Of a DNA stretch of 40,988 bases, positions 5,701-21,033 are shown in pieces. Below the pieces are notes generated by a model. The model had not been told where the DNA came from. It searched no databases and was given only the letters and a program-made list of their open reading frames with translations. This stretch comes from an uncultured Bacilli bacterium (lineage in GTDB: Bacteria; Bacillota_I; Bacilli_A; RF39; UBA660). Every line of letters begins with the position of its first letter. Position 1 is the first letter of the stretch. The stretch lies in the NCBI GenBank assembly GCA_944363795.1, contig CALVVG010000006.1:1-40988 (forward strand), read 5' to 3'. The position numbers were made by a program, and so were the translations under genes.

Positions 5701-7502
5701 TTATAAGTACCATTATCAACTAATTCTACATCTTTACTACCAACTTTTGCTGATCCTGTAATTACTGGATTCATATTATCTTGATATAAATTAAATTTTT
5801 TAGTGGCATTTCCTGCTTTATCGTATCCGATTATATCATATCTTACATTATCAGCTTCAGTATCTTTACTAAAGATTAATTCATTTTCAAAAATTTTACT
5901 AGTTTCTTTTGTTACATGATTATATACTTCCATATAATCAAAATATTTATCAGTAAATATTAAAGTTCCTTCTTTAATTATATTACCATTTGTGTAATTA
6001 CTAGTTGGAATAGTTTTATCTACTACTATATTGTAGGTATTAGTATTTCCAGCTTTATCTGTTAGTATCACTTTATATCCAGATTCACCAGTAGCTGTCC
6101 ATCCTTTTGCTATAGCATATTCAGTTCTATCATGGCCATTTACTTCAAATAATTTGAAATTATCATCCTTAACAGTCATTGTCACATCAACATTATAGTA
6201 CAATGTTTCATCAGTTGCTTTAATTTCTTTACCATTAATTACAAGCAATGGTCTAACTGTATCGATTGTAATTTCTTTTGAAACAATATTACCCACTTTA
6301 TCTTTAGCAGTAATTTTATAAACACCATCTTCAGTTAATGTAAAAGTAAATGTTCTATTTTCACCGCTTTTTTTGTCAAAATCACCATCAGTTAATGTAT
6401 ATTTTTCATCTCCATTTGGTCCTTCAACTAAAACTTCAGTTAAGAATTTATCAAATACTGTCAATGTCACATTTTGATTAGAAATATCTTCAATTACGTT
6501 ACCTTCACTGTCAGTAAATGTTATAGAAGCATCAGTTGTATCAACTGCTAACCAATAAATAGTTTCATTACCAGCTTTATCATAAGCATATATTTTATAA
6601 GTTCCTTCTTCATTTAATATGACTTCTAATGTTTCATCTTGAGCATTATAAGTTATTGAATCTTTTGTATCTTGATTTTCTACAATAACTTTATCAAGAG
6701 ATAAATCAGTAATTTCGATAACAGCATCATTTTTATTATTGAAATGAGTTGTATTAGGAACGTTCATAATAGTTTTCGTAGCATCAGTTTCATTTCTATC
6801 TATTGTAAATGTAACAATTGTTGGTTCATTAAAAGAACTATCACTTACAGTAAGAACATATGTTCCTTCTTTATTTAAATTTTCTAAATCTGCATCTTTT
6901 ATTTCTTTACCATCAATAGTTAATACATAAGATACTTTTGTATCATCTTCAATTTCTACTTTGACAGTTTTAGCGTTAGTAAACTTACCGTTTAAATCTT
7001 CCGGTGTTACAATTGGTGATGAATTATCACTAAGTATTGCTAAAATATCTTCAAATGTTTCATTAGCTTTTTCATCATTTAGATTAGCTATATTTTCTTT
7101 AGTAATATCATTATCAACTCTAAATTTTTCTGCAGCTTTTAAATCATCCTTATTTGTTGCAGAATTAACTTTTTCTGATAATTGAGCAAGCAATGCCGCA
7201 TAATCAACAGTTTGAATTGCTGGACTATCTATTTCATCATTATTATCAGTTACTTGATTTCCACCATTATTAACCGAATTATTTACTAAACGATTATTAC
7301 CTCCTTCCTCTTCAGATTCTCCATCAGTTTGTTCTTGTGGAGTTGTTTGACCATTATCATTTGTACCATCATTTTTAGATGGTTCTCTTGTACCATTTCC
7401 TTGGTCAAATGATTCATCTTCATCTTGAGCAAATACAAAAGTGCCAAGACCAATGATTAGGAAAAGTACAATAGCTAAAATTAGACCTTTTCTCTTATCC
7501 AT
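2745..7502 (-). CDS. Giant secreted Ig-like repeat adhesin
   Basis: A protein of 1,585 residues, probably a surface stalk or adhesin. It begins with a signal peptide (basic MDKRK, hydrophobic core about 6-24, then FAQDED), followed by an acidic Asn/Gly/Gln-rich linker (about 25-95) and a short helical region (about 100-160). At least 13-14 Ig-like modules follow, each ending in a D-x-A-G-N type turn followed by a (V/I)D-x-T-x-P hinge, for example DKAGNETIYW, DRAGNESTIKF and DVAGNETTAY. The last module (ELGSEYTDLGATMTDN) is of the DUF5011 type. Start at ATG 7500-7502 because GGGAGG lies just upstream; an earlier in-frame start at 7538 falls inside the promoter. The frame closes at 2745, where a one-base slip separates it from the beta-helix part. 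Ligand unknown; no cell-wall sorting motif visible. Confidence 0.88.
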   Translation of the reverse strand: MDKRKGLILAIVLFLIIGLGTFVFAQDEDESFDQGNGTREPSKNDGTNDNGQTTPQEQTDGESEEEGGNNRLVNNSVNNGGNQVTDNNDEIDSPAIQTVDYAALLAQLSEKVNSATNKDDLKAAEKFRVDNDITKENIANLNDEKANETFEDILAILSDNSSPIVTPEDLNGKFTNAKTVKVEIEDDTKVSYVLTIDGKEIKDADLENLNKEGTYVLTVSDSSFNEPTIVTFTIDRNETDATKTIMNVPNTTHFNNKNDAVIEITDLSLDKVIVENQDTKDSITYNAQDETLEVILNEEGTYKIYAYDKAGNETIYWLAVDTTDASITFTDSEGNVIEDISNQNVTLTVFDKFLTEVLVEGPNGDEKYTLTDGDFDKKSGENRTFTFTLTEDGVYKITAKDKVGNIVSKEITIDTVRPLLVINGKEIKATDETLYYNVDVTMTVKDDNFKLFEVNGHDRTEYAIAKGWTATGESGYKVILTDKAGNTNTYNIVVDKTIPTSNYTNGNIIKEGTLIFTDKYFDYMEVYNHVTKETSKIFENELIFSKDTEADNVRYDIIGYDKAGNATKKFNLYQDNMNPVITGSAKVGSKDVELVDNGTYKSVSLNIADGSLKQVILVNNDNEVLKTFDNNYNSSIKLEFTKEFKDNGTYEIKAIDRAGNESTIKFTIDNNKPVIKGIENGGYYQSVKITVEDDSKLGSMHLKKDGEKYNNYELGTELTEEGNYSFYITDVAGNKSETIEFTIDNTAANYNAVNFYVNGGYQNDTNYYATFGDTLVAYIRTNEELKENPTFTFTYGDKKITLSGDDVELTIEDKEEYKYLYRVKYVVNEEEFANLQDVEVKLAITNVIDKAGNTTLDNKTKEATIDVTNSNKIFMDTIAPKYETLRLTNVSRKDENGKWLQVATIGDIVRIIVSFVENPATEPTLTINGEEVGQMKYDSQMKSYTYDYKVNENTKNGLMQIEVSEYADVVGNVGVTLTNEDITNNEQNEMLVDTINPEVVFASTHNYNKYYDLDKLAITIKDANLKEVYYTWSNTNKYVNATTKIDSENIINNEDGTYTINIPTIEGRNRLHIRAIDVAGNETTAYSSKGAYNIDKTDPEITLYYWFGDGNHKVIEPSVHNYCVFAEATDANMKSITLNGQEYTNGELICDTDKYELKAVDKANHEVSINFEIDRTYGSIFINDKDEYNTYDIKTLHKYQKIENIKFSESGTVRLSKNDQIVYFGNDADFAYDFTDGVYKLELIDKGGNNTVVMFEVDGTAPQVKELRINSSNENKQYANETHSVGIYLTVDEKLAKDPVFTINGVQYKLTEQKEVTKGYFYATTTKLPEETKEGELEFSIDVEDEFGNPATFTNADILNDVGYDKVIFDTTDPELILAGIEETYDNVLRIESGTPKTLEDITAKAIDASFDEEVSVKPYKVEFYDNTGKQEDNDYDYDFSNGLDTRKPSGSRYNVYYEVTDKAGNTTKDVMLVMMSDTTNPNVTINGPHDVNVELGSEYTDLGATMTDNVDATINNLKPSAIKYYTLGMTFIENVDTGIVDTNREGRYLLYYDYTDASGNSSLINGSHSLTQTRWVIVKDTTVQ

Positions 7503-7528
7503 AATATCCTCCCTTTCTAGCTGGCTAT

Positions 7529-7557
7529 AATATACCACATTTTTCCTTTATTTTCAA
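7529..7557 (-). promoter_or_regulatory. Promoter of the adhesin gene
   Basis: Minus-strand TTGAAA (7552-7557), a 17-base spacer and TATATT (7529-7534), about 27 bases before the ATG at 7502. Close to the vegetative sigma-A consensus. Confidence 0.75.
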
Positions 7558-7566
7558 CAGAATTCA

Positions 7567-7613
7567 AAAAAAAACTAACCTCCCATATATACTTTATGAT
7601 AAGTTAGTTTTTT
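7567..7613 (-). terminator. Terminator after lepB
   Basis: AAAACTAAC (7569-7577) and its complement GTTAGTTTT about 22 bases away form a stem with a large loop, with a T run following on the minus strand just beyond the lepB stop. It separates lepB from the adhesin promoter. A T run on the other side as well would let it act in both directions. Confidence 0.65.
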
Positions 7614-7618
7614 ATTTT

Positions 7619-8146
7619 CTAAAAAACACTAATTTTGTTTATTGGCCATATTCTTAAAGCAATTTTTCCATTTATATTTTTTTTAGAAATTAAACCAATT
7701 TCTCGACTATCTACTGAATTTTCACGATTATCTCCCAAAACTAAATACATATTTTCAGGAATTGTAGAATAACCTAATTCATTAAGTGAAAAATCAGGAT
7801 ATTCTACATTATCTTTTAAATATTCTTCTTCATATAAATTATTATTAATATATAGTTGATTATTTTTTATTTCCACGGTTTCCCCTGGTAAACCAATAAC
7901 TCTTTTAATTAAATATTTGGTATCTGCATAATCTAAAGATATTATATCTCCTCTTTCAACATCAAAAATACGATAATTAAATTTATTTAAAATTAGAACT
8001 TCACCATCACTTAATGTTGGATTCATTGAGCTACCAACTACTTGCGTAACAGATACAACATAAATCATTAAAAATAATATTACAAATACTATTAGAACTA
8101 ATTTTAGTGAATCTTTTATTAATTCGCGAATACTTAACCAGTCCAT
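7619..8146 (-). CDS. lepB: Signal peptidase I
   Basis: Serine-lysine type I signal peptidase that cleaves signal peptides from exported proteins at the outer membrane face. The 175 residues, typical of Gram-positive SipS-type enzymes, show one N-terminal membrane helix (about 14-36), the catalytic serine in VVGSSMNPTL (S40), the catalytic lysine in YLIKRVIGLPGE (K81) and the conserved LGDNRENSVDSREIG box near 137-151. Because the lysine is present it is not of the SipW/ER type that pairs with TasA-like proteins. ATG start with AAGGGTG six bases upstream. Transcribed alone: promoter at 8173-8202 and terminator at 7567-7613. It lies directly upstream of the giant adhesin and may serve it, which is inference from position. 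Confidence 0.95.
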   Translation of the reverse strand: MDWLSIRELIKDSLKLVLIVFVILFLMIYVVSVTQVVGSSMNPTLSDGEVLILNKFNYRIFDVERGDIISLDYADTKYLIKRVIGLPGETVEIKNNQLYINNNLYEEEYLKDNVEYPDFSLNELGYSTIPENMYLVLGDNRENSVDSREIGLISKKNINGKIALRIWPINKISVF

Positions 8147-8431: not shown

Positions 8432-8458
8432 AAAAAAAGTCGAGAATATTATCTCAAC
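8432..8458 (-). terminator. Terminator of the McrBC-like operon
   Basis: GTCGAGA (8439-8445) and TCTCAAC (8452-8458) pair with one G-T wobble around a 6-base loop. A seven-T run follows on the minus strand (8432-8438). It closes the four-gene operon about 16 bases after the stop at 8474. Confidence 0.85.
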
Positions 8459-8473
8459 TTTCTTAAAATATTT

Positions 8474-9739
8474 TTATTCTTCTAACAATTTAACTTGCAC
8501 TTTGGCATTAAATATTTTTCCTTGATCATAATTTTGTTCTTCTCCAGTACCATGAAGAGTAAATGATATTGTATATTTTTGAGTATTATTTGGTTCTATT
8601 GCAATGCGTGTTGCAAAAGTTTCATTATTCCATGGAGTTGTATCCCAATCTTGTTTATAACCATTATTATCACTAGTTACACGATACCAAAAATTGTTAC
8701 TTTCAAAAGTATTTTGATTAACAATCCAATTTAAATCATAATATAAAACTTTATTTGTTGTATTTGTAACTTCGAATGTTAAATCTGGAATAGAAGTATT
8801 TACACCTTGACCAACTTGATCATCAGGGTAAATATTTTCAGCATTTATAACATCTTGATTATCATAAATTACTACTAAATCAGCAGTAGTAAAATCAATT
8901 CCACCATTTCCATCTTCACTAGTTCCCCCACCATTGTCATTTATATTAATATTTGTACAATTTTTGTCACAAACATTATCTTTATCCTCATCGCAATTTA
9001 TATCACAAATGCCATCACCGTTTACATCTAAATCCAGATCCTTAATACCATCACCATCAATATCTCGATCTAAATCAATTTCTCCATCACCATCATAATC
9101 AATGTTCATATCTGGCCATCCGTCATTATTTGTATCACAATTTATATCACAAACGCCATCACCATCAATATCTTGATTAATTTTATTAAATATTGTTCCA
9201 TCCTCCATTACAACATTAAAAATTGGTTTTCTATTATTATGATAATCTATATTACGATCAGGTTTTTGATCTTTATCTATATCACAATTTATATCGCATA
9301 TACCATCATCATCTAAATCAATATTCAAATCAGGTATTCCATCCCCATCTAAATCTTGATTCATTTGCATACGTCCTAAATATTGAACTCCGGAATAAGT
9401 GGCAAAACCTCCTAAGAAAAGGAAAGCTAAAGCAAAAAGAATTATTAAACCTAAATTACCATTCTTCTTAAATTGAAAAACTAATTTACTACCATTTTTA
9501 GCAACTTTTAAGCTACCTGGCAAATAAATTTCATTATCTTTAGTATCAAAGCAAATATTTAAAACTTTTTCTATGTGTTTTTTTTCTATTTTATATTTGC
9601 CTTCATACATCGATTCTAATTTTTCTTTTATTTTCTCATCTTGTTTTTCGGCATTTAAAAGCATAAACTCTTTTAAATCAATAAGTTCTCTTTTATTATT
9701 TGTTTCTACTTTCAAATCTTTTTCATTTCTTTTTGCCAT
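8474..9739 (-). CDS. Single-pass membrane protein with calcium-binding DxDxDG repeats and TasA-like head
   Basis: A 421-residue protein in three parts. The cytoplasmic N-terminus (1-92) is charged. One hydrophobic helix (about 96-117, NLGLIILFALAFLFLGG) crosses the membrane. The outer part starts with about 135 residues of aspartate-rich repeats (129-262) of thrombospondin type 3 style, D-x-D-x-D-G-x-x-D, including three near-identical DGICDINCD/DGVCDINCD units whose paired cysteines could form disulfides. After a Gly/Ser linker, residues 285-421 form a beta-rich domain resembling TasA/camelysin-type surface domains (GVNTSIPDLTFEVTN, then QNYDQGKIFNAKVQV). ATG start with GAGGGTAG upstream, 12 bases after the preceding gene. 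Last gene of the operon, so probably the outward-facing partner of the inner AAA+ protein. Function unknown. Confidence 0.8.
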   Translation of the reverse strand: MAKRNEKDLKVETNNKRELIDLKEFMLLNAEKQDEKIKEKLESMYEGKYKIEKKHIEKVLNICFDTKDNEIYLPGSLKVAKNGSKLVFQFKKNGNLGLIILFALAFLFLGGFATYSGVQYLGRMQMNQDLDGDGIPDLNIDLDDDGICDINCDIDKDQKPDRNIDYHNNRKPIFNVVMEDGTIFNKINQDIDGDGVCDINCDTNNDGWPDMNIDYDGDGEIDLDRDIDGDGIKDLDLDVNGDGICDINCDEDKDNVCDKNCTNININDNGGGTSEDGNGGIDFTTADLVVIYDNQDVINAENIYPDDQVGQGVNTSIPDLTFEVTNTTNKVLYYDLNWIVNQNTFESNNFWYRVTSDNNGYKQDWDTTPWNNETFATRIAIEPNNTQKYTISFTLHGTGEEQNYDQGKIFNAKVQVKLLEE

Positions 9740-9751
9740 AATCTACCCTCA

Positions 9752-10840
9752 CTATTTTAATATTGCATTAGCCTTTTTAGAATTTTTTTCGAAATCATCA
9801 AAAAAATCTTGAAAACATTTTCTAATATTATTATAAATTCTTTCTTTTCTTTTATTAGCTTCCCTAAATTCTTTAGTTATAATTTTTTTAAATTCACTTT
9901 CTTTAATTTGAGCGGAAAATACAAAATCATTAATTAATTTACTTATAATGGCTTCATTATAAACGGCTTTTTCAACACTTTCCTTATCTTTTAGTGCATC
10001 ATCATTTATAAAAAATGCTAAATCATATTTTTCTTTAATTAATGGATCTTTTATTTCCTTATTTTCTTTAACTATTGATGTAACTGGTTTTATATTATTT
10101 TTTTCTAAATATTCCCATAACTCCAAAGCTTTTATAAAATTTGGTTCTTTTAAAATTACGTTAGTTTTTCTTATTGGACTTCTTACGGGACTGCTTTCTT
10201 TTAAGCCTTTAATAAAAGTACTATTTTTAAAAGCTCCTATAACATCTCGTATATATTCAATACGTTCATCTAAAGTATGACCATCTTTTGAAGCATTAAC
10301 CTCATCGTGATAACTGCTTTCCAAATTTAACGTTATTTTTACTTGAGCATTTTTTATTTTTTGTATTCCTTCATAACTAACATTATTAGTTATTTTAGCA
10401 AATGACTTTTGATCAGATTCGCTTAATTTATTTTGAACAAACATATATAAATTATCAACTAATGATTTAATAAATCTGTTTTCATATAAATCAATTGTTT
10501 CTTCTCGGTAAACATTTAATAATTTTAAAGGAATAACAGTTCCATCATCATGAACTTCTTGAATTAAATTAGTATTTTGAGCTAAATGTCTAATAGATTC
10601 TTCAGTCACAACTTTGGCTTTTTCTATTGGAACTATATTTTCTTCTTGAACAATAAATCGTCTGGGATTTCGAATAATATTGTCTAGATATGGTATTGAT
10701 TCTTCTACCATATCTATCCAAGTTGTATCACTTACTTGTTTTTCAATGTTTCTTTTTATAGAAATATTAGAACTAGTTGATTCAATAAATTTTGTAATTT
10801 TATCTTTATTTAAATTATTTAAATAATCTACTATATTCAT
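9752..10840 (-). CDS. DUF2357/McrC-like protein without a visible nuclease motif
   Basis: A soluble 362-residue protein with no membrane helix. The segment IPLKLLNVYREETIDLYENRFIKSLVDNL (about 103-131) matches the hallmark of DUF2357 proteins (a YENRF-type motif), which are N-terminal to or related to McrC, the partner of the McrB motor. In McrC this region is followed by a PD-(D/E)xK nuclease. Here the C-terminal 150 residues are helical and lysine/glutamate-rich, and no D...E-x-K triad stands out, so endonuclease activity is doubtful. It is 7 bases downstream of the McrB-like ATPase gene and 12 bases upstream of the Ca-repeat protein gene, which supports a shared complex. ATG start with AGGTG upstream. 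Family assignment is from motif memory and should be tested by profile search. Confidence 0.65.
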   Translation of the reverse strand: MNIVDYLNNLNKDKITKFIESTSSNISIKRNIEKQVSDTTWIDMVEESIPYLDNIIRNPRRFIVQEENIVPIEKAKVVTEESIRHLAQNTNLIQEVHDDGTVIPLKLLNVYREETIDLYENRFIKSLVDNLYMFVQNKLSESDQKSFAKITNNVSYEGIQKIKNAQVKITLNLESSYHDEVNASKDGHTLDERIEYIRDVIGAFKNSTFIKGLKESSPVRSPIRKTNVILKEPNFIKALELWEYLEKNNIKPVTSIVKENKEIKDPLIKEKYDLAFFINDDALKDKESVEKAVYNEAIISKLINDFVFSAQIKESEFKKIITKEFREANKRKERIYNNIRKCFQDFFDDFEKNSKKANAILK

Positions 10841-10847
10841 ATTTCAC

Positions 10848-12353
10848 CTATATTGTTTTCTTAAGTCGAAGTAAATATGCTTTACATTCTGGAGTTTTAC
10901 CAGTTCCAAATAATTTTTCAAGATAATTTATCAAGCCATCAATTTCATCTTTAATATATGCTAAATTTAATTGTTCAAACTTTCTTAGTATTTTATGAGC
11001 AATCAAATAATCTATACCAGCTACTTCGTCACCACCACAAGCCACAAATGCTGGAACAAATTCTCTTAATTGTTTAACTATACGATTACCAAAAGCTAAA
11101 CGGAAATGATCTATAACATATCTATCTAATTGAGCAATTTTTTCCAATGTTTCATCTGTAACGGGATTTTTTTGAGCTGCTTCTATAAATAAATTTTGAA
11201 AATATTTATAACTTACTTTAACAGCTTCGGTATCAGGTGCTGTAAATGGTTCACATTTATCATCTATTGCAATAGGCATAGCTCTATCATAAACTTTATC
11301 AGTTATCATAAATGTAGAGTCATCATTATTGATTGTACCAACATACCACATATTTTCTGGAATTTTCAATTTTCCTTCATCCAATTTTTGAGGATCATTT
11401 GGCCAAACATTAGGAACTAATTCTACAACCCAATCTTTTTTATTTGGAAGTTCTAGAATTGATAACATTTCTGCAAAATAATATTCAACACGGGAAATAT
11501 TCATTTCATCAAGTAATGTTATATAAACTTCATCAGTATATTGGGCTTCATACATTTTTTCAAGTATTTCAGTTTCATTAAATTTTTTAGTAAATTCATT
11601 AAAATATCCAAATATTTCAGTTGAATCTCTCCATGATGGTTGAACACTAGCAACAGTTGTTTCATTTTCAACAAAAGAACCAAATGCATAAGCAAGTGAT
11701 GTTTTACCAGTACCAGAGATACCTTCCAATATAATTAATTTATTTGAAGCAAATGAAGCAACAAATAAACGAATTAAATTAATATCATAATATAAATGTA
11801 ACTTTGATGCTGAATAATTACGAAACATATCGCATAATTGTTCTAATGAAAAATCGTTATTAATTACAGCTGGTGTATAATCACTAAACTTTTGATCAAC
11901 AGAACTTAATTTAAAGAATCTACTTTCACCATCTTTTAATTCATTTTTAATATTTCCTTCTTCATCATATTCAATATTGCCTTCACTATCTGTAAGCTCA
12001 GCAATTTTGGAATTTTGTTTTTTTAATTTTAATATTTCATTATTTAATACTTCTATTTCATCAATTAATTGGTCTTCTTTTTTGACATTTCTTCTATATC
12101 TCATATATGTCCTAACTGCTCGATAAATTAAAAAGATAATAATTGCAAAAATTGCTATTAAAAATATAATAGATAATATTAATATTACCATTCCTAATCC
12201 AGTTAAATCGCTTTTATAATCTTGAACTACAGTAACATAATTAACTATATTAAATATTTGACCTAAACCTTCACCAATTCCTTTAATAATTGCTAAAAAA
12301 CCTTCAAATAGCGGTTCCATAAACTTTGTAAAAAATTCTCCATACACATTCAT
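10848..12353 (-). CDS. Membrane-anchored McrB-like AAA+ ATPase/GTPase
   Basis: 501 residues. A hydrophobic, glycine-rich N-terminus (about 5-42) and a strong membrane helix (53-79) are followed by a basic stop-transfer stretch and a coiled coil (about 92-120). The AAA+ domain shows Walker A GISGTGKT (211-218), PSWRDSTEIFGYFN (239-252, the W-R-D...GY pattern typical of McrB), Walker B ITLLDE (278-283) and YVGTINNDDST (337-347) in place of the McrB signature GTMNxxDRS, with an arginine in VYDRA (358). McrB-type motors hydrolyse GTP or ATP and drive a McrC partner; the next gene is such a partner. Ordinary McrB is soluble with an N-terminal DNA-reading domain. Here that domain is replaced by membrane anchors. 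ATG start with AAGGAGG ten bases upstream. Confidence 0.82.
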   Translation of the reverse strand: MNVYGEFFTKFMEPLFEGFLAIIKGIGEGLGQIFNIVNYVTVVQDYKSDLTGLGMVILILSIIFLIAIFAIIIFLIYRAVRTYMRYRRNVKKEDQLIDEIEVLNNEILKLKKQNSKIAELTDSEGNIEYDEEGNIKNELKDGESRFFKLSSVDQKFSDYTPAVINNDFSLEQLCDMFRNYSASKLHLYYDINLIRLFVASFASNKLIILEGISGTGKTSLAYAFGSFVENETTVASVQPSWRDSTEIFGYFNEFTKKFNETEILEKMYEAQYTDEVYITLLDEMNISRVEYYFAEMLSILELPNKKDWVVELVPNVWPNDPQKLDEGKLKIPENMWYVGTINNDDSTFMITDKVYDRAMPIAIDDKCEPFTAPDTEAVKVSYKYFQNLFIEAAQKNPVTDETLEKIAQLDRYVIDHFRLAFGNRIVKQLREFVPAFVACGGDEVAGIDYLIAHKILRKFEQLNLAYIKDEIDGLINYLEKLFGTGKTPECKAYLLRLKKTI

Positions 12354-12358
12354 TTCAA

Positions 12359-13432
12359 CTAATCCTCCTTATTCTTAATTACAAACTTTATATTATTTTT
12401 TTCCCAAGTATATTCATTTTCTTTATTATTTTCTATAAATTCTTTATTGACGATAACTTCCATATCATATGTAAATTTATTTTCATTTACATTTTCATTG
12501 TTTAAATATTCATAAATTAAATTAAAGCCCATTTCTTTTATAGTATTTAAACTATCAATATATTTACTTTCATCATCAACGTTAACTAATATTTTAATAT
12601 ATTTTTTTAAATATTGATTATCAAACTCTTTAAGGATATTTGGCCTTTTATTTAAAAAATCATTCATTTTGATTAGATATGTACCAATTTCTTTATTGCT
12701 AATTAATTCCATTAATATTTTAATTTTTAATAATTCGTAAGACATTTCCAAAAACTTTGTTGTAAATTCTTTTTTTATTTCTGCAATCAGATCCTTATCA
12801 TATTCATCTAACCCCTTTATATTATAATTAAAATTAAAAGTATAATATAATGGCTCTATTGTATAAATACGATATTCATTGCTATAATCCTTCGATTTAT
12901 AAAGTTCAAAAAATTTATTATCATCCTTATTGTTTTTCTTAATTGCATCAAATAAATCATTTATTCTAATTCTATCATTAGCATAAACTTTTAATAATTT
13001 AGTCTTTTTTAGATAATTTAATAAATATTTAAATTTACTTTTAGTATCTATAAAATTACCATCAATTACATTCGTTGAAATATCTACATAACAAGCAGTA
13101 CAAACTATTACAGACAATAAAAAAGTTTCATTTTTCTTTTGCCTAAGCATTCCTTCCTGTGCTGTTTTTTTACAATATTTAATTATTGATTGGAGCACTA
13201 AATTAATATTATCATTTGAATATTCAATGGGATTATCCCGATGTATATTATTATCAAAATAGTAACTATTAGCATATATATCTATTACATCTTTACATAT
13301 ACTATTAAATTCGTTTTTAGTTTTCCACATTTTATTTTCTTCTAAAGTAATTAACGATTCTAGTATCTTAGCATATTCCAATAAATCCTTTTTCTTTTTT
13401 TCTACGTATTTATCGATAACACTTAAACTCAC
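12359..13432 (-). CDS. Helical protein of unknown function, first gene of the McrBC-like operon
   Basis: 357 residues, mostly charged helices with many K, N, D, Y and I residues. No signal peptide or clear membrane helix, though one short hydrophobic stretch with two cysteines (LLSVIVCTACYVD) occurs near residue 106. I do not recognise the family. Start is GTG at 13430-13432, chosen because AGGTGA lies eight bases upstream; no earlier start fits. The stop is 5 bases before the McrB-like gene, whose ribosome site overlaps the end of this frame, so the two are translationally linked. It may be a substrate-recognition or structural subunit of the operon's complex, which is inference from context only. 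Confidence 0.7.
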   Translation of the reverse strand: MSLSVIDKYVEKKKKDLLEYAKILESLITLEENKMWKTKNEFNSICKDVIDIYANSYYFDNNIHRDNPIEYSNDNINLVLQSIIKYCKKTAQEGMLRQKKNETFLLSVIVCTACYVDISTNVIDGNFIDTKSKFKYLLNYLKKTKLLKVYANDRIRINDLFDAIKKNNKDDNKFFELYKSKDYSNEYRIYTIEPLYYTFNFNYNIKGLDEYDKDLIAEIKKEFTTKFLEMSYELLKIKILMELISNKEIGTYLIKMNDFLNKRPNILKEFDNQYLKKYIKILVNVDDESKYIDSLNTIKEMGFNLIYEYLNNENVNENKFTYDMEVIVNKEFIENNKENEYTWEKNNIKFVIKNKED

Positions 13433-13607: not shown

Positions 13608-14279
13608 ATGACAATATATGACGATTATGAATCAAAAAAAATGCTCGAAAGTATAAACAGAAGTAATTTTCAAAAAAAATACATGCAAAATTTTAATTTA
13701 GAAAAAAATAAAGAAGTGTTATATGAAAAATCCCGAGGTAACGTTAAAATTGAAAAAAGGAAAAAGAAGAAACTTCCTTGTGTTATTATAATATTAATGG
13801 TTGCTGGTATTACTGCTACAGTCAGTTCCCATATAATAAATTTAAAAAATGATATTGGAGCTAGTATTTATGCCATTAGCAATGATACTACTGTTGACGA
13901 TCATACATTTAAAACTAATGATGGCTTCGATTATGACAACAAAAGTATTGCTGCAAGTGTCTTAGCATCAGATAATCAAGAAAATTTAGATATAAAACTA
14001 TATAATTTATATTTAGATTATAATTATCAAGTCATAGAGCAAATGAACGAAGTATTTGCTCATATGCATACAATAATAAGCAACAATCCAGATGCTTTTA
14101 CAACAGAACAAAAGAAAGTATGCTTTTATCCAGATTTTCAAAGCTATTTATCAGCTCGTGGATTTAGTGATTTAGAAGATTATAAAAAAAAGATGAACGA
14201 AATTATAAATATCTATAATAATTATCAAAATATTGATGAAAAATTAACAGAAGAATTTAATAATATAGGAGGAAGATAG
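13608..14279 (+). CDS. Single-pass membrane protein of unknown function
   Basis: 223 residues. A charged cytoplasmic N-terminus ends in a very basic block (KIEKRKKKKL, 47-56) and is followed by one membrane helix (about 57-75). The outer part (about 80-223) has a low-complexity linker and then a helical domain (LYNLYLDYNYQVIEQMNEVFAHMH ...). The family is not recognised. The outer domain resembles the helical, coiled-coil style of extracytoplasmic domains in small Bacillota membrane proteins, nothing more specific. ATG start with AGAAGG six bases upstream. It is separated by one base from the next gene, which it probably works with. The unit is transcribed divergently from the McrBC-like operon. 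Confidence 0.75.
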   Translation: MTIYDDYESKKMLESINRSNFQKKYMQNFNLEKNKEVLYEKSRGNVKIEKRKKKKLPCVIIILMVAGITATVSSHIINLKNDIGASIYAISNDTTVDDHTFKTNDGFDYDNKSIAASVLASDNQENLDIKLYNLYLDYNYQVIEQMNEVFAHMHTIISNNPDAFTTEQKKVCFYPDFQSYLSARGFSDLEDYKKKMNEIINIYNNYQNIDEKLTEEFNNIGGR

Positions 14280-14280
14280 A

Positions 14281-14532
14281 ATGGATAATTTTACAGAAAT
14301 TGATACTTTAACTTTAAATAATGGAAAAAGTTATATTGTAACAGATCAAATAGTTATTGAAAATGATACATATTTATTTTTAAATAATGAAAATGATTAT
14401 AGCGATTTTTGTATAAAAAAATTAATACCTAATAATAATGAAGAATTGCAAGGCATTGAAACAAAAGAAGAATTTAATAGAGTATTAAATGCTTTTTTAG
14501 AAAAAAATAAAGATTTATTAAAAGAAGAATAG
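14281..14532 (+). CDS. Small acidic protein of unknown function
   Basis: 83 residues, acidic, soluble, with four or five predicted beta strands (TLTLNNGKSYIVTDQIVIENDTYLFLNN) followed by a C-terminal helix. The size and strand pattern recall DUF1292-like small proteins, but I see no signature motif. ATG start with AGGAGG (14268-14273) lying inside the end of the preceding gene and one base between the two frames, so translation is coupled. Its last codons and stop lie inside the shared terminator at 14521-14550. Confidence 0.7.
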   Translation: MDNFTEIDTLTLNNGKSYIVTDQIVIENDTYLFLNNENDYSDFCIKKLIPNNNEELQGIETKEEFNRVLNAFLEKNKDLLKEE

Positions 14533-14550
14533 CTGTGCTATTCTTCTTTT
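14521..14550. terminator. Bidirectional terminator whose arms encode both convergent C-termini
   Basis: Perfect 13-bp arms (14521-14533 and 14537-14549) with a 3-base loop, T-rich at both exits. It contains the stop codon of the plus-strand gene (14530-14532) and that of pbpB on the minus strand (14538-14540). Both proteins end in the same KEE tripeptide encoded by the arms. Confidence 0.9.
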
Positions 14551-16658
14551 AATTCAATATTCAAAATCATATTATTTACATCTATTACAGTATCAACGCT
14601 AATGCTTTGCGAAACAACATAGCCATATCCATTGCTTTCAAAATTTAAACCTATTAAGCCACAATATGTTTTAACTTCACTTAAACTCCATCCTGTCATA
14701 TCAGGCATTTTAATTTCTAACCCATTAGTTACCAAAAATAGTTTTCCTCCTTCTAAAAGGGTGCTATTTTTTAAAGGATATTGATTAATAATATATTTAC
14801 CATTACCAATATTAGTTATTTTTATTTTTTTATTTTCCAGTAAAGCATTAACAGTATTAATATCTTTACTTAAATAATTATCTATATTTATAATTTTACT
14901 TAAATCATTTTCTGTTGTATCTTCTGTTAATTTAGCATATTTACCAATTTCTTCAATAGCTTTTGTAGTCACATCTGCAAATCTTAAACTATTTCCTTCA
15001 AAACGCCGAGCAGCTGCGTAAACAATGTATTGAGGTTTATCTTCAGGAAAAATTCCCCCAAAAGATCTAATAGAATCATATTCACCAGTCAAATATCCAC
15101 CATTTGGTGACGCAATTTGAGCAGTTCCAGTTTTGCCCATTAAACTTAATCCTTCTGGTTGCCAAGCTGTTCCATTTAAGCCTTCGTATACTACTTTATG
15201 CATAAGCTCATGCATTTTTTCAACAGTCGAACTGCTAAAAACATTATTAACTACAGTCCTCATACCTTCATAAGTTACATCACCATTACTATCAACAATT
15301 TTATCTACTATGTATGGTTTTATCATATTTCCATCATTAGTCATCGTCGATAACGCTTGAAGCATTTGTATTGGTGTAACACTTATCCCTTGTCCAAATG
15401 CTGAGTTGGCCAATTCAGATTTATAAACTACATCTACATCACCAGTAACTTCATTAGCAAGTTCGATTCCTGTTTTTTTCCCAAAACCAAGTAAATCATA
15501 ATAATCTAATAAGTTTTTGTCTCCAGAATCAGCTAAACGAAAAGCTAGCATTGTTGCTGCAACATTTGAAGAATAAGCAAATCCTGTATCAAAATTTATT
15601 TCACCCCATGTTTTATCAACATCACTAATAATAGTTTGAGAATCAACTTGAATTGATCCAGACTTATAAACTTCATTACCATCATATAAACCTTCTTCGA
15701 TAGCTGATGCAAAAGAAAATATTTTCATAACCGAACCAGGTTCATATTGATAACTAACTAATGGATTCATATAGCTAGAAATTGTATTCATATTATTTGG
15801 ATTAAAATTAGGGCTGGTAGCACTTGCCACAATTGCTCCAGTATTTGCGTCCATCACTGTAAATATAGCCCACTCTGTATTATATTCATCTTGGAATGAT
15901 TTAACAGCATTTTCAGCTATAAGCTGAATACTACGATCAATAGTCAAATAAATATCTGAGCCATCTACTGCTTCTACAGTTTCTTCTGGAGTATTAGGAA
16001 TTTTGTAATTACTGGATGTATATTTTAAATAAGTTGTATAACCATCTGTACCTGACAAAATATCATTGTAATATCCTTCAATACCTAATTCTCCAACTAA
16101 TTTTCCTTCTTCATTTTTTTTGGCATAGCCAATAATGTATGAAGCGAATGTAGAATTACTATAATACCTTTTTTTTGAATTAGTAATAAAATCTATACCT
16201 GGCAAATCTAATTTTTCAATAGCGTGTTTTAAAACTTCGGTTATTTCATAACCTCCAGGTCTTAATTCTACTTGATAAGCATCTCGATTTAAAAGCTCTA
16301 ATATTTTTTCTTCACTCATTTGCAGAAGTGGCGATAATGCTTGAGCAGTAGCTTCTTTATCTACAACATGCCTTGGCTTATTTTCATCAGTTGTTCTTGA
16401 TTCATCCAAATAGGCAATTACCGTATAAGAATTAACCGATGTAGCAAGTTCTTCGCCATTAACATCAAAAATACTTCCACGACTAGCATATAATTTTTTG
16501 GTAAAAGTTGTAATAGATGCCGATTTTTCCTGCAAATTAATACCATCTACTTTATCACTTAAAACAACATAGGATAACTTAATAATGGCACAAACAAATA
16601 AAATAGCAACAATTAAAATAATAACTTTTGATATTTTAACAGTTGCTATTTTTTTCAT
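14538..16658 (-). CDS. pbpB: Septal penicillin-binding protein 2B/2X-like transpeptidase with two PASTA domains
   Basis: Division transpeptidase (FtsI family) that cross-links septal peptidoglycan. 706 residues: membrane helix 11-33, dimerisation domain starting near RGSIFDVNG (60-68), transpeptidase domain with S309-VMK, SSN at 363-365 and KTGTAQ at 509-514, then two C-terminal PASTA repeats (about 585-646 and 647-704). All three catalytic motifs are intact, unlike the PBP at 59-1318. PASTA domains bind peptidoglycan or muropeptides. ATG start with GAGGGGAG upstream and 15 bases after ftsL. Last gene of the mraZ-rsmH-ftsL-pbpB operon, where this protein is expected. In Bacillus the cluster continues to mraY-murD; here it stops at a strong terminator. 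Confidence 0.95.
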   Translation of the reverse strand: MKKIATVKISKVIILIVAILFVCAIIKLSYVVLSDKVDGINLQEKSASITTFTKKLYASRGSIFDVNGEELATSVNSYTVIAYLDESRTTDENKPRHVVDKEATAQALSPLLQMSEEKILELLNRDAYQVELRPGGYEITEVLKHAIEKLDLPGIDFITNSKKRYYSNSTFASYIIGYAKKNEEGKLVGELGIEGYYNDILSGTDGYTTYLKYTSSNYKIPNTPEETVEAVDGSDIYLTIDRSIQLIAENAVKSFQDEYNTEWAIFTVMDANTGAIVASATSPNFNPNNMNTISSYMNPLVSYQYEPGSVMKIFSFASAIEEGLYDGNEVYKSGSIQVDSQTIISDVDKTWGEINFDTGFAYSSNVAATMLAFRLADSGDKNLLDYYDLLGFGKKTGIELANEVTGDVDVVYKSELANSAFGQGISVTPIQMLQALSTMTNDGNMIKPYIVDKIVDSNGDVTYEGMRTVVNNVFSSSTVEKMHELMHKVVYEGLNGTAWQPEGLSLMGKTGTAQIASPNGGYLTGEYDSIRSFGGIFPEDKPQYIVYAAARRFEGNSLRFADVTTKAIEEIGKYAKLTEDTTENDLSKIINIDNYLSKDINTVNALLENKKIKITNIGNGKYIINQYPLKNSTLLEGGKLFLVTNGLEIKMPDMTGWSLSEVKTYCGLIGLNFESNGYGYVVSQSISVDTVIDVNNMILNIELKEE

Positions 16659-16673
16659 TTTTTAATTCTCCCC

Positions 16674-16973
16674 TCATTCAGCTGAAATAATTTTGATATT
16701 ACCATTTATATAAGAAAGTCCATATTCTTCTGCTACTTTTTGAATATTTTCCAAACTTGCTAATTCATCTACTTGCATAGCTAAACTTTGATTTACAAGT
16801 TCTTGGCTTTCAATATTATCTCGTAACTTTTCCACTTCATTGTTTGTTTTACTTAACAATGAACTTGTATAAACATTAAACATTGGTATAGCTAGTAATA
16901 AACAAATTACTAAACCATACATAAATTTTTCTCCTTTAAGTAATTTTACTTTTTTAGTTTTCTTACTAGCCAC
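16674..16973 (-). CDS. ftsL: Cell division protein FtsL-like
   Basis: A 99-residue bitopic protein: a basic cytoplasmic tail (KKTKKVKLLKGEK), one membrane helix (about 18-38) and an extracellular coiled coil (about 40-76, NNEVEKLRDNIESQELVNQSL) ending in a short conserved-style tail (IQKVAEEYGLSYING). This is the size and architecture of FtsL, which binds DivIC and recruits or activates the septal transpeptidase. FtsL diverges strongly in sequence, so position between rsmH and pbpB carries much of the weight. GTG start (16971-16973); the AAGGA ribosome site lies within the last codons of rsmH, four bases separate the frames. Confidence 0.88.
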   Translation of the reverse strand: MASKKTKKVKLLKGEKFMYGLVICLLLAIPMFNVYTSSLLSKTNNEVEKLRDNIESQELVNQSLAMQVDELASLENIQKVAEEYGLSYINGNIKIISAE

Positions 16974-16977
16974 ACTC

Positions 16978-17892
16978 TCATATCCTTTCTATCACTCGCA
17001 ATTTGGCACTAGCACTTCGAGAATTTTCGCTTAATTCCTTTTCACTAGCAACAATTGGTTTTTTATTTACTAATTTTATTAAAGGTTTGTATTCTTCTGG
17101 AATATCAATCATTCCTTTAACAATTTCATTTACTTCACTATATTCTTTAAATATATTTTTAACAATTCGATCTTCTAAAGAATGAAATGTTATTACTCCT
17201 ATTCTACCACCTTTTTTGAGCATCTTTATTGCTTTAGGCAAAATTTCTTTTAATACATCTAATTCACTATTAACCTCAATTCTTAATGCTTGAAATATTT
17301 TTCTTTCTGGATGATTTTTATAAAAGTAATTAGCTCCAACAGCTTTTTTTATTACTTCTACTAATTCCATTGTGGAATTTATATTTTCTTTGTTTTGATT
17401 AATTTTTTTAGCAATTGCCCGGCTTAACTTTTCTTCACCATATAAATAAAATATTTCACTTAATTGTTTTTCAGAATAAGTATTTATAATATCTTTGGCA
17501 CTTTTACCTTTACTACTCATTCGCATATCTAAAGGTCCATCTTGCATAAATGAAAAACCACGATTTTTATCATCAATTTGTGGTGAAGAAAAACCTAAAT
17601 CGAATATTATGCCATCTACCAAAAAAACATTTTCTTTTTCAAGTATTTCTTTCATATAAACAAAATTATAGTTAAAAATTTTAAAATTGTCAGCAATATT
17701 TTTTAATACTTCTTCCGAATAATTTACAGCATTACTATCTTGATCGAAAGCGAATAGGTAGCCTCTTTTTATTCTTTTTAATATTTCTTGTGCATCTCCA
17801 GCATAACCTAAAGTTGCATCTACATACACCCCGTCTTCTTTAATATTTAGCATTTCAATTAATTCATTTTTTAAAACACTATAATGTTTCAT
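16978..17892 (-). CDS. rsmH: 16S rRNA (cytosine-1402-N4) methyltransferase
   Basis: RsmH (MraW) uses S-adenosylmethionine to methylate N4 of C1402 in the 16S rRNA decoding centre. 304 residues, near the usual 310. Visible motifs: an AdoMet-binding loop VDATLGYAGDA (family usual GTLGxGGHS, so slightly divergent), FDQDSNA, DGIIFDLGFSSPQIDD, RGFSFMQDGPLDMRM, ALRIEVNSEL and ITFHSLEDRIVK. Start is ATG 17890-17892 with GAGG six bases upstream. This gives the family N-terminus MKHYSVLKNEL and a 14-base overlap with mraZ; an in-frame start 36 bases earlier would add an untypical extension. Confidence 0.96.
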   Translation of the reverse strand: MKHYSVLKNELIEMLNIKEDGVYVDATLGYAGDAQEILKRIKRGYLFAFDQDSNAVNYSEEVLKNIADNFKIFNYNFVYMKEILEKENVFLVDGIIFDLGFSSPQIDDKNRGFSFMQDGPLDMRMSSKGKSAKDIINTYSEKQLSEIFYLYGEEKLSRAIAKKINQNKENINSTMELVEVIKKAVGANYFYKNHPERKIFQALRIEVNSELDVLKEILPKAIKMLKKGGRIGVITFHSLEDRIVKNIFKEYSEVNEIVKGMIDIPEEYKPLIKLVNKKPIVASEKELSENSRSASAKLRVIERI

Positions 17893-18319: not shown

Positions 18320-18325
18320 AATATC

Positions 18326-18460: not shown

Positions 18461-20956
18461 CTAAGCTATTTTGTAAGGATCACTCGAATTTCCTGTTCCT
18501 CCAGTTAGTACTACACTAGACTCTAGATAAAAGGACGGACTCACCACACGCGTATCAGTCACACGGCCGTTGAAGACATTCCCTGGTTTTATCACATGGA
18601 AGGCATTACGCTCATTTTCTGCCCTGCGGGAAATTGTCCATCCAGAACCTAAACTTAGCCAGTTTGTACTTTTTGCATTGTCATAATCATTTAATGCTGT
18701 TGTCCAATTACTTGGTGCTGCTGCATATCCATAATCACTTACATACATTAAGCCTATTTTCATGTTATCGGTTGTACTACCTGAGCTACTTCCTATTTCT
18801 GTATTGTAATATTCTTTTGCTGTTGCTGCATCATCTCGAGCCATTCCACCAACTTTCCATGTATGTATTGCTATCTTTTCTTGCCATGGGGAATCTATTG
18901 TTTCTAAAAATGTACTATTTAATGTGTTTCTTATACCTGGTTTTGTGCTTGAATTCCATGTATTATCTTTTTCACTATTCCATGCATACTCTCCAATACT
19001 TGTATTTTTTATTAATTTAATATTGTATGTTCCATCTTTATCATCATCAAATAAGCCTATGATTCGATATAAATTGTCTTTTGGGCATGTTGACCTATTA
19101 CTACCAAAGCACACATAATTATTGGGATTAGCTCCACTATATCTATATGAGTTATCTCCAGCTTCTTCTGAAGCATTTGTATATGTCCCTACCCCATCAT
19201 GATAGTATAGGTCATTTACTCCATCAGATGTGTAAACTGTATTTATTATATAATCTGCTGCAAAAGAACTTTCTGTTTCCTCACTCGTTACATATTCACT
19301 TGATACTCTGCCATTACTATCTTCGACATATACTTTTATATAAAATGTTGTATCACTTGTTAAATTATTAAATGTATAACTATTACTTGTACTTTCTTCA
19401 TAGTTACTTCCATTATCTTTACTATAGTAATACTTAACTATTTCTCCATCTCCATTTGTTCCATTTACATTGATTGTTATACTATCACTTGTACTACTTG
19501 TTTCTACGTTGATACTTGGTAATATGTATTCATCTGTTCTTACTTGCATTTCATACACATTTGATTCTCTATTTGAACTATCTATTGCTTTTACTTTTAT
19601 CGTGTATTCTTTATTATCACTTAAATTATTAAATACATTACTTTCTTGATATGCTCCATCATCTATTGAATACATATATTTACTTATTTCATTGGTTCCA
19701 TTTGCTCCGGTTGGTGTTAATGTGATACTATTCCATGTCGTTGTTGCATCTACTCTGGTTACTGTTGGATTTATATATATTTCTGTTGTTATTGCTTCAT
19801 AATATTCGGTTGATTCTTTATTTTCACTATCTACTACTTTTACTTTTATTTTATATTCTGTTGTATCTGTTAAGTTATTAAATGTATAGGTATTATTACT
19901 ACTTGATTCCCAAGTTAAGCCATTATCTTTACTATACATATATTTGGTTATTTCATTACTTCCTTTTGTTGCATTTACTGTTAAACTAATACTTGTTAAT
20001 GTTACACTATGGCTTACACTATTTATTACTGGGACATCGTATTCTTCTGTTGTTATATTTGTTGTATATATATTTGATTTTACTTTATTTTTATCTACTA
20101 CATAACTATATATCGTATATTCTTGATTTTCTTCTAAATTGGTAAATGTATATTCTGCTACATCACTTTCTATATATTCTACATCACTTGCACTTCTTGT
20201 ATTTGTATTTTCTTCTATTCCATAATAATATTTTTCTACTTCACTTGTTCCATTACTTAACTCTAAACTTACTTTAGCACTATTATATGTTGCCTCACTT
20301 TCTACATTATTTATTTCTATTGGAACATACGAACTCATTTTATTTTGAGTCATATATATTTTCCCTGTTAATGTTTTTCCTTGATTCTTATTTTGATCAC
20401 TATCTAAATTCTTAAATGTTATCTTTACTTCCCAATCTTGTTCAGCCATTCCTGTTGTTGTTGCTATTTCATAATCCGATATTATTAAATATCCTCCCGT
20501 TCTTGTTGTTATATCAAATCCTTCTTCATAATGTACTAACCCTGTTATATTTTCTATTTTTTTACCATTAGGATCTGTTACTTCTAATAATAGTTCTGGA
20601 GTTGCTCCACTTGTTGTATATTCAAAATCATTTGCTTCTATTATTAGATAGATATTATATGTTGCTGTTGCAGTGTTATTTGTATTATTGGCTTTTAGAG
20701 TTGCTGTTGCTGTTGTACTACTTGCTATATCTCCCGCATTAGGAGCAAAGTTTTCTTGATTAGCATTAATATTTATATCATTTGCGATATTAAATGTTAG
20801 CATATCTGTTGTATCTGTTATGACATTCATATTTTCTGTTTTATTTCCACTACTTTGGGCTACAAAATATGCTACTGTTGCTCCACTTACTACTAGTATT
20901 AATGTTATTACTCCGATCAATGTTATTATTATTTCTTTTTTATTTTTTCTTTGCAT
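18461..20956 (-). CDS. TasA-like/FN3-repeat surface protein with GC-rich, possibly hypervariable C-terminus
   Basis: 831 residues. The N-terminus is a long signal segment (basic, then IIITLIGVITLILVVSGATVAYFVA) of the TasA/camelysin style, followed by a beta-sandwich-like domain (about 35-205). Four fibronectin-III-like repeats of about 85-95 residues follow (about 212-575), each with a KYYYS/KYMYS strand and a YTFNNL...YxIKV strand. The C-terminal domain (about 580-831) is shared with the protein at 30863-32137 (YYHDG...DNSYRYSGANPNNYVCFG...DNLYRIIGLF ... PSFYL). The last ~100 coding bases are about 53% G+C, far above their surroundings. Start ATG 20954-20956 (AAAGG nine bases upstream) is preferred to the ATG nine bases earlier, which abuts the ribosome site. 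Role unknown; cell-surface adhesion or matrix is inference. Confidence 0.85.
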   Translation of the reverse strand: MQRKNKKEIIITLIGVITLILVVSGATVAYFVAQSSGNKTENMNVITDTTDMLTFNIANDININANQENFAPNAGDIASSTTATATLKANNTNNTATATYNIYLIIEANDFEYTTSGATPELLLEVTDPNGKKIENITGLVHYEEGFDITTRTGGYLIISDYEIATTTGMAEQDWEVKITFKNLDSDQNKNQGKTLTGKIYMTQNKMSSYVPIEINNVESEATYNSAKVSLELSNGTSEVEKYYYGIEENTNTRSASDVEYIESDVAEYTFTNLEENQEYTIYSYVVDKNKVKSNIYTTNITTEEYDVPVINSVSHSVTLTSISLTVNATKGSNEITKYMYSKDNGLTWESSSNNTYTFNNLTDTTEYKIKVKVVDSENKESTEYYEAITTEIYINPTVTRVDATTTWNSITLTPTGANGTNEISKYMYSIDDGAYQESNVFNNLSDNKEYTIKVKAIDSSNRESNVYEMQVRTDEYILPSINVETSSTSDSITINVNGTNGDGEIVKYYYSKDNGSNYEESTSNSYTFNNLTSDTTFYIKVYVEDSNGRVSSEYVTSEETESSFAADYIINTVYTSDGVNDLYYHDGVGTYTNASEEAGDNSYRYSGANPNNYVCFGSNRSTCPKDNLYRIIGLFDDDKDGTYNIKLIKNTSIGEYAWNSEKDNTWNSSTKPGIRNTLNSTFLETIDSPWQEKIAIHTWKVGGMARDDAATAKEYYNTEIGSSSGSTTDNMKIGLMYVSDYGYAAAPSNWTTALNDYDNAKSTNWLSLGSGWTISRRAENERNAFHVIKPGNVFNGRVTDTRVVSPSFYLESSVVLTGGTGNSSDPYKIA

Positions 20957-21033
20957 ATCAATCATCCTTTCTTTTTATAATAACAAATGACTTTTAAATA
21001 TCTTGTCGTATTTTATTATTTATCTATAATAAA

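Follow-up and report, generated by a model that had tools for sequence, protein, structure and literature searches.

A nuclease-less, membrane-anchored McrBC-like operon matching the CoCoPALM class in an uncultured Bacilli bacterium, and its probable role with SipW/TasA-type surface fibres

In the McrBC systems of type IV restriction, McrC stimulates NTP hydrolysis by McrB, and relatives of this pair are routinely labelled as defence. As for surface appendages, FimX exemplifies the degenerate EAL domains that gate pili; we know of no dedicated motor in the TasA/SipW pathway of Bacillus subtilis, nor of an McrB-type motor in its TapA-SipW-TasA operon. The closest described relative of the locus analysed here is CoCoPALM, which was named in 2024 in a few sentences, with a later description promised and with no tested function (Bell et al., eLife 2024, PMC11090510). 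Its traits are an N-x-D McrB-type NTPase fused to an FtsB-like transmembrane (TM) segment and a coiled coil, a DUF2357 McrC homologue (usually coiled-coil) in the same operon, and an association with a signal peptidase family (PMC11090510). No later study of CoCoPALM was found in the literature searched.

We analysed a window of 40,988 nucleotides (the whole stretch of contig CALVVG010000006.1 considered in this work) from an uncultured Bacilli bacterium. It contains a four-gene operon that matches the CoCoPALM class and that, according to sequence or structure comparison, encodes a TM-anchored ATPase, a nuclease-less DUF2357 protein corresponding to the N-terminal part of McrC, a protein with an EAL-type fold (Hel) and a membrane protein with putative calcium repeats (CaR), the system being linked to SipW and TasA genes. 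In our reading, to which we assign a probability of about 0.64, the operon provides a CoCoPALM-type system for SipW/TasA-type surface fibres with its motor module at the membrane; most likely, it aids the building of such fibres rather than fighting viruses.

The four genes are co-directional on the minus strand, from position 13432 to position 8474 of the window, and are separated by spacers of 5, 7, and 12 bp. A strong Rho-independent terminator (8433..8464, minus strand), with a 13-bp stem, a 6-nt loop, and a U-run, lies just 3' of the last stop codon, and folding assigned to its hairpin a dG of -14.3 (z -4.94). The initial annotation had described four tightly spaced genes running from one promoter to one terminator; the open reading frames, their spacing, and the terminator were all confirmed, whereas the promoter scan retrieved nothing above chance, so that a single promoter is plausible.

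The second gene (10848..12353, minus strand) codes for a McrB-type AAA+ ATPase of 501 residues, whose AAA domain matched E. coli McrB in a profile search of the PDB (E 8.5e-8). The motifs are those already quoted in the initial annotation for an AAA+ protein with a membrane helix: a Walker A (GISGTGKT, residues 211-218), a Walker B (LLDEMN), and the NTPase motif NNDD (residues 342-345), which is invariant across 37 homologues. Since a gapless alignment with McrB fits N-x-x-D as well as N-x-D, a one-residue deletion in the ATPase is ambiguous. Hydropathy places the TM helix near residue 65, and in the homologues it is followed by a heptad-like stretch (about residues 86-125); Pfam revealed no DNA-binding specificity domain at the N-terminus, this region being occupied by the TM helix and the coiled stretch. 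A TM segment with a putative coiled coil at the N-terminus of a McrB-type NTPase with N-x-D(-D) recalls CoCoPALM; an FtsB-like character of this region is only hinted at by a match to FtsL below threshold (E 0.09), and the FtsB/DivIC models gave none.

The product of the third gene (9752..10840, minus strand; 362 residues) was assigned to DUF2357 (Pfam PF09823, E 3e-14), so that the earlier DUF2357-like call survived a profile search. In its AlphaFold (AF2) model, residues 33-254 (nt ~10079-10744) correspond to the N-terminal part of McrC with its beta-hairpin stalk, while a helical tail (residues 255-362), including a long C-terminal helix (314-361), replaces the PD-(D/E)xK nuclease. In VIA-align the model matched the four McrC structures best (Z 8.2-8.9; next 5.3), and the best Foldseek match was McrC 6hz4_M (probability 0.99); the structural match is confined to the pre-nuclease part and extends to about residue 190 of E. 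coli McrC. A hidden nuclease was also sought, and neither a PDB profile match nor such a fold in the model (Foldseek/VIA-align) was retrieved. The predicted structure thus supports the absence of a nuclease fold, as had been proposed from the lack of an obvious PD-(D/E)xK triad. The homologues from Clostridia possess long Lys/Glu-rich tails, and the helical or coiled extension of the McrC homologue is a further trait in common with CoCoPALM.

The operon shares with the McrBC systems of E. coli and T. gammatolerans the AAA+ McrB fold and the McrC N-terminal fold with the hairpin stalk; unlike them, it lacks the PD-(D/E)xK nuclease, no DNA-binding N-domain was found, and it has a membrane anchor and surface partners. 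This agrees with the earlier view that the locus is not a classic DNA restriction system but a membrane-tethered motor with an outward module. Similarly, CoCoNuT systems include a McrB/DUF2357 pair and coiled coils, and some CoCoNuT types have lost the nuclease (PMC11090510); unlike CoCoNuT, this operon has a membrane anchor, and no RNA-binding domain was found in it. Neither the operon nor its conserved neighbours harbor the HEPN or other nuclease partner expected in a nuclease-less CoCoNuT.

The first gene (12359..13432, minus strand; 357 residues, GTG start) codes for Hel, described at first as an unknown helical protein. The AF2 model (pLDDT 91.8) confirmed a helical bundle in the N-terminal half (residues 1-179); the description must be amended for the C-terminal half (residues 180-357, about nt 12362-12895), where structure comparison revealed a degenerate EAL-type TIM barrel. 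The best 46 rows of the VIA-align comparison were all EAL domains (Z 8.3-10.1; next fold 6.2), and the best Foldseek matches were Bd1971 and the EAL domain of FimX. The fold is visible from structure only: Hel did not match EAL profiles, the E-A-L signature is missing from the corresponding strand, which reads TFNFNYN, and no invariant column was found in the alignment of 34 homologues. Hel is also homologous to the c11 family of Clostridia (hhalign probability 97). Active c-di-GMP signalling in this genome, and with it a phosphodiesterase role of Hel, was dropped, since the Pfam EAL family (PF00563) had no match in Hel nor elsewhere in the window genome (82% complete), whose sole GGDEF protein carries the non-canonical motif TDGNEF. 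As in FimX and other degenerate EAL regulators of pili, a degenerate EAL fold would lie beside a surface-appendage machine; unlike FimX, Hel has no GGDEF partner domain and its sequence similarity to EAL domains is undetectable.

CaR, the product of the fourth gene (8474..9739, minus strand; 421 residues), consists of a conserved cytosolic domain (residues 1-95), a TM segment (~96-118, near residue 105 by hydropathy, with no cleavable N-terminal signal), a stalk (119-270, nt ~8930-9385), and a beta-rich, TasA-like head (~285-421, nt ~8477-8887). The stalk is made up of DxDxDG repeats with paired Cys, predicted from their motifs to bind calcium; it contains 9 D-x-[DN]-x-[DN]-G sites, whereas shuffled sequences have 0.6 (maximum 4), and its length varies among relatives in units of ~135 residues. 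These data bear out the single-pass protein with a repeat-bearing outer stalk and a beta-rich head that had been recognized earlier. Neither a PDB profile search nor the Pfam camelysin model gave a match in CaR. The head appears homologous, as judged from a family-level HMM match, to TasA-like subunits: the CaR-head HMM matched the SipW-signal TasA-like proteins of two related loci (L152 and L157, E 7e-10), and among 2,821 ORFs its non-fragment matches beyond CaR-like proteins were SipW-signal TasA-like proteins only.

The presence of fibre genes around the operon was then considered across Bacilli and Clostridia. In each of the 68 genome loci that made up the first set, and also in the loci retrieved from the family, the DUF2357 gene is next to the ATPase gene, and the genes around the pair encode signal peptidases of the SipW type and subunits resembling TasA/camelysin. 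In the loci without CaR, SipW-type peptidases (75 genes) occur within 6 kb in 35 out of 39, and TasA-like genes in 36 out of 39; the SipW identity of the linked peptidases was confirmed with NCBIfam (8e-32). The co-conservation of the four genes holds throughout the first set for the central pair, while the first and fourth vary by lineage, with recognizable counterparts. In L152, from the same family and with exactly the architecture of the window, the four genes are directly preceded by SipW and three TasA-like genes; L156-L158 encode a fusion of SipW with the Hel/c11 protein, immediately 5' of the ATPase gene. EAL-domain proteins accompany the Clostridial loci too (EAL, 1.7e-50). The signal peptidase link, as seen in these loci without CaR and in L152, is again a CoCoPALM trait.

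The operon of the window genus has no signal peptidase of this type beside it: SipW occurs within 6 kb of none of 29 CaR-type loci, the peptidase near the operon in the window being an ordinary signal peptidase I, so that for this genus the connection is drawn from relatives and from genome-wide occurrence. The window genome harbors one SipW, on another contig, and seven TasA-like loci. One of the latter lies inside the window, outside the operon (18461..20965, minus strand), and its translation is a surface protein of 834 residues with a SipW-type signal (...VSGATVAYFVAQSSGN...), a TasA-like N-domain, and Fn3 repeats, sharing 57% identity with the TasA-like query (E 3e-82). We infer that it is a candidate client, belonging to the wider system. 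Just 3 of 19 TasA-like members matched Pfam camelysin, and their alignment retrieved from the PDB chance-level beta proteins and archaeal pilins only, with no TasA structure. In the family, SipW was present in 41 out of 41 genomes possessing the ATPase and in 83 out of 104 lacking it (Fisher p 0.001, kinship ignored), with 3.4 and 1.5 copies per genome, respectively; as SipW is common in the family, this co-occurrence is weakly discriminating.

The wider system resembles TapA-SipW-TasA of B. subtilis and CalY of B. cereus in having SipW and beta-sandwich subunits with SipW signals, and differs from TapA-SipW-TasA in the extra CaR stalk and EAL-like gene. Compared with CoCoPALM as described, the operon adds an EAL-fold first gene and a fourth gene with DxDxDG repeats and a TasA head, and the partners in relatives are SipW and TasA/camelysin-like proteins. 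CoCoPALM would gain concrete partners (SipW, TasA-like subunits, and an adaptor with an EAL fold), as well as a version of only four genes that is convenient for testing.

On these grounds the following scenario can be depicted. The AAA+ protein would form a hexamer on the inner face of the membrane, into which the stalk of the DUF2357 protein would insert to stimulate NTP hydrolysis, in the manner of McrC with McrB. Instead of DNA, the target of the NTP cycle would be TasA-like fibre subunits, during their export, SipW processing, or assembly, or alternatively the cytosolic domain of CaR. Hel might gate the motor as FimX does for pili, its ligand being a nucleotide or only a protein; CaR may relay a force or a signal through the membrane, and the CaR stalk, stiffened by Ca2+, would put the TasA-like head outside as a fibre anchor, cap, or nucleator. 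The stronger claim, that the nuclease-less membrane McrBC NTPase is a dedicated SipW/TasA fibre motor, EAL-gated and CaR-coupled in this lineage, and represents a kind of sortase-independent Gram-positive appendage machine energised at the inner membrane, seems to us evenly poised. A linked NTPase in other Bacillota would make cytosolic powering of fibre export or assembly testable.

The same SipW/TasA neighbourhoods would also fit membrane quality control, with the motor working as an unfoldase or segregase for SipW substrates that are stalled or mis-inserted, which it would extract or degrade, and taking no part in fibre assembly. The AAA+ fold, the membrane tether, and the SipW-Hel fusion, which suggests an action at the processing step, are consistent with this possibility; we nevertheless consider it unlikely, since no protease partner was seen in the operons, CaR with its fibre-like head suggests assembly or anchoring, and McrB-type AAA+ proteins are not, to our knowledge, unfoldases.

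A different role could be envisaged from the position of the operon in the genus, since in many congeners it is flanked by a PBP gene on one side and the gene for signal peptidase I on the other. CaR might read the wall state or Ca2+ outside the cell and, by means of its cytosolic domain, inform the motor and the EAL-like adaptor, controlling wall synthesis, with the fibre genes as a recurrent regulon neighbour only. The conservation of the cytosolic domain and the stepwise variation of stalk length are in line with such a sensor; however, most Clostridial systems lack CaR and have SipW and TasA-like genes as local partners, and L038, L048, and L154 depart from the PBP synteny, which makes this explanation very improbable. 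The involvement of the motor architecture in envelope remodelling, also put forward in the initial annotation, is instead favoured in its fibre-building form, the homologues being embedded in SipW/TasA-type loci.

As to anti-phage defence, the less likely reading, a membrane McrBC-like sensor would respond to phage entry, sensed by the surface protein, with growth arrest or damage. The McrB/McrC ancestry of the two central proteins speaks for it, as do the match of the ATPase to the PADLOC candidate model PDC-M26A (E 7e-40) and the inclusion of nuclease-less McrC homologues among CoCoNuT defence candidates (PMC11090510). However, the ATPase gene is present in all 30 genomes of the genus, a core distribution that argues against defence and not against the complex; its chromosomal site is often conserved, and its neighbours are cell-wall or housekeeping genes; no effector domain was found, and the steady linkage is to SipW/TasA genes instead. 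PADLOC analysis of 70 neighbour proteins did not reveal a defence island: the matches listed, with at most two members per family, were cross-hits (UvrD as GajB, radical SAM as viperin, and a DRT helicase-type model). The phage-entry sensing or abortive response suggested at first is therefore disfavoured, and defence appears a rather doubtful explanation; if the envelope motor is true, such defence calls mislead in many gut Bacillota genomes. A mobile-element origin was likewise discarded, as no relative was found in viral contigs, and on plasmids or phages no match reached a coverage of 80% of the ATPase. Distant McrB relatives do occur on plasmids and on one phage; those of two plasmids (L159 and L160) adjoin helicase-type genes, not SipW.

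The four ORFs of the operon were all found on the minus strand, as described in the initial annotation: Hel, the first gene (12359-13432), the membrane-anchored McrB-type ATPase (10848-12353), the DUF2357 protein, a homologue of the N-terminal part of McrC (9752-10840), and CaR, a single-pass protein with a presumed calcium stalk and a TasA-like head (8474-9739). The intergenic gaps are, in order, 5, 7, and 12 bp. The proposed transcription from one promoter to one terminator was confirmed for the terminator, a 13-bp hairpin and U-run directly 3' of the last operon stop (dG -14.3, z -4.9), but not for the promoter, since promoter-like sites in a scan were no more than expected by chance.

From Pfam, the ATPase retrieved only AAA_5 matches, all sub-threshold; a profile of 37 homologues, however, matched E. 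coli McrB in the PDB (8.5e-8), in agreement with the McrB-like AAA+ domain previously claimed, and PADLOC assigned the protein to a candidate family, PDC-M26A (7e-40). A TM helix around residue 65 is followed by basic residues, a heptad-like stretch, and the AAA domain; none of the homologues deviates in Walker A, Walker B, or NNDD. The DUF2357 assignment also held (Pfam, 3e-14). In the structural alignment of its model (built with 60 homologues; pLDDT 82), the sole matches at Z >= 8 were four McrC entries (8.2-8.9), covering residues 33-254 and ending approximately at the start of the McrC nuclease, while residues 255-362 are modelled mostly as helices. In clostridial homologues this helical part is lengthened into long Lys/Glu-rich tails. 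No nuclease fold was seen in the predicted structure, as had been anticipated for this product; the extent of the McrC match and the helices that follow it thus show, at the level of the model, that the McrB-activating part of McrC was retained and the nuclease lost. Invariant positions among the homologues include E120-N121-R122 (YENRF motif) and the N227/K231/W242 set.

Hel had been regarded as an unknown helical protein, which no longer applies to residues 180-357: in the structural alignment of its model (pLDDT 91.8), the best 46 matches to this region are all EAL domains (Z 8.3-10.1; next fold, 6.2). According to the model, the C-terminal half is a degenerate EAL fold, and Hel probably has no enzyme activity, because the EAL likeness is undetected by sequence profiles and the alignment of 34 Hel homologues has no invariant column. 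Along its length, Hel is homologous to the c11 family (hhalign probability 97), which precedes the ATPase in other lineages, and in still other loci the product of the gene upstream of the ATPase is readily identified as an EAL protein, at 1.7e-50 (together with an HD domain) or 1.3e-20. In the window genome, a single GGDEF protein was found (L149:345-2366); it carries a non-canonical motif, TDGNEF, and a long N-terminal part resembling, by eye, solute-binding domains.

In CaR, a conserved cytosolic domain is joined through a TM helix near residue 105 to a stalk of repeats that contains paired Cys, and the head is rich in beta structure. The DxDxDG stalk is real, with 9 D-x-[DN]-x-[DN]-G sites versus 0.6 expected from shuffles, and congener proteins of 421, 557, 693, and 831 residues, up to a frame of 1,029, differ by stalk steps of about 135 residues.

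Scanning a single genome for each species yielded 68 loci. In every one of these, the ATPase gene adjoins the DUF2357 gene, as it does in the fetched family loci; the co-conservation proposed for four genes holds for the pair, while Hel and CaR vary by lineage. In the more divergent loci of the phylum, the DUF2357 gene was recognised by its own HMM in 14 out of 20. Within the genus the order is Hel-ATPase-DUF2357-CaR. Elsewhere, clostridial loci included, the pair lies amid small two-TM proteins, which are SipW-type signal peptidases (NF046067, 8e-32; TIGR02228, 3e-28), and TasA-like proteins with N-terminal signals ending, e.g., in TYAWFT or ATYAYFTAQ, and with beta-rich domains after the signal; Pfam camelysin matches 3 of 19 of the latter (best 9e-8), and a few match TapA weakly. 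Within 6 kb, 35 of 39 loci without CaR harbor SipW genes (75 genes) and 36 harbor TasA-like genes. A SipW-type gene is also found directly upstream of distant 600-aa ATPase versions with four TM helices.

Three bridges tie the window operon to these loci. In a relative of the same family (L152), the operon has exactly the window order and is immediately preceded by a SipW gene (3e-25) and three TasA-like genes. Probing 2,821 ORFs with the CaR-head HMM retrieved, outside CaR-like proteins and fragments aside, only TasA-like proteins with SipW signals (best 7e-10). Lastly, the protein encoded immediately ahead of the ATPase at L156:5797-7827, L157:9317-11446, and L158:5503-7938 is a fusion of a SipW peptidase with Hel/c11 (TIGR02228 down to 5e-23; c11 HMM down to 6e-41), longer than the two domains together. 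In raw genome counts, with kinship ignored, SipW occurs in 41/41 ATPase-positive versus 83/104 ATPase-negative family genomes, with 3.4 and 1.5 copies, respectively. In one relative, the region upstream of the operon (L154:3714-6488) codes for an ATPase of the secretion type plus two membrane proteins, judged by eye to be Tad/type II-like.

The phage-defence role initially suggested is not favoured. Patchiness and mobility are typical of defence systems, whereas the ATPase gene is present in 30/30 genus genomes, with one close orthologue each (and a second, divergent copy in one), frequently with a PBP gene and signal peptidase I close by. Cell-wall, RNA, and housekeeping genes surround the operon; PADLOC matches among 70 neighbour proteins were scattered and of the cross-hit type. 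No ATPase relatives were retrieved from viral contigs, and plasmid and phage matches were partial and distant. These data argue against defence in this genus, an argument that does not extend to all of CoCoPALM, a McrB-derived class.

The name CoCoPALM was given to a clade of McrB NTPases of the NxD type that carry a fused FtsB-like TM/coiled-coil domain and are associated with signal peptidase family proteins, its description being left for a later paper (Bell et al. 2024, PMC11090510); apart from this article, only the same authors' preprint carries the name in the literature searched. On most tested features the window operon fits this kind, differing in the additional CaR gene and in its unlinked signal peptidase. 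Its NNDD motif may reflect the NxD deletion, although a gapless alignment to McrB also fits N-x-x-D; the TM and heptad-like region may be FtsB-like, with a sub-threshold FtsL match (E 0.09) and no FtsB/DivIC model hit. The comparisons show the folds, the membrane anchors, the missing nuclease, and the linkage and fusion of genes. By analogy with McrBC, the ATPase would form a hexamer that hydrolyses NTPs and is activated by the DUF2357 protein. The neighbouring genes point to SipW-processed fibre subunits as probable clients, on which the motor might act in export, processing, polymerisation, or disassembly; from their architecture, CaR would be an anchor or cap and Hel a gate. The main rival explanation would be a role in membrane quality control.

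Other ATPase arrangements were also observed. Tandem ATPase-DUF2357-ATPase loci (L129:7306-12484, L133:7375-11596, L134:6964-11598, and L148:7086-11334), flanked by proteins of about 1,000-1,700 residues and with no SipW detected there, are another variant, possibly a hetero-hexameric motor. McrB-type ATPases of about 900 residues with at least six predicted TM helices (L132:7749-10460, L135:7898-10567, L136:5285-8026, and L147:6097-8772) adjoin DUF2357 or similar-sized genes. A human faecal phage record (MT835511.1:40028-41104) encodes a McrB-type ATPase with 32% identity across the AAA domain.

The window genome harbors one SipW gene and seven TasA-like loci, one of which lies in the window (18461-20965), just upstream of a cell-division/wall cluster adjoining the operon (14538-18361, minus strand: PBP, MraW/RsmH, and a 160-aa ORF in the MraZ position). 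Two tandem TasA-like surface proteins of this genome (L110:4784-6379 and 6450-7934) have near-identical N-terminal parts and divergent C-terminal heads, a sequence pattern that suggests duplication with head variation. Adjacent to the operon and divergent from it, two plus-strand genes (13608-14279 and 14281-14532) code for a 223-aa single-TM and an 83-aa protein with no family match; the pair (clusters c17 and c14) is kept at the same position in about a dozen congeners. Moreover, a surface protein of 1,597 aa containing repeated bacterial Ig-like domains (2745-7538, minus strand), beside signal peptidase I (7619-8146), shows synteny with the operon across several congeners.
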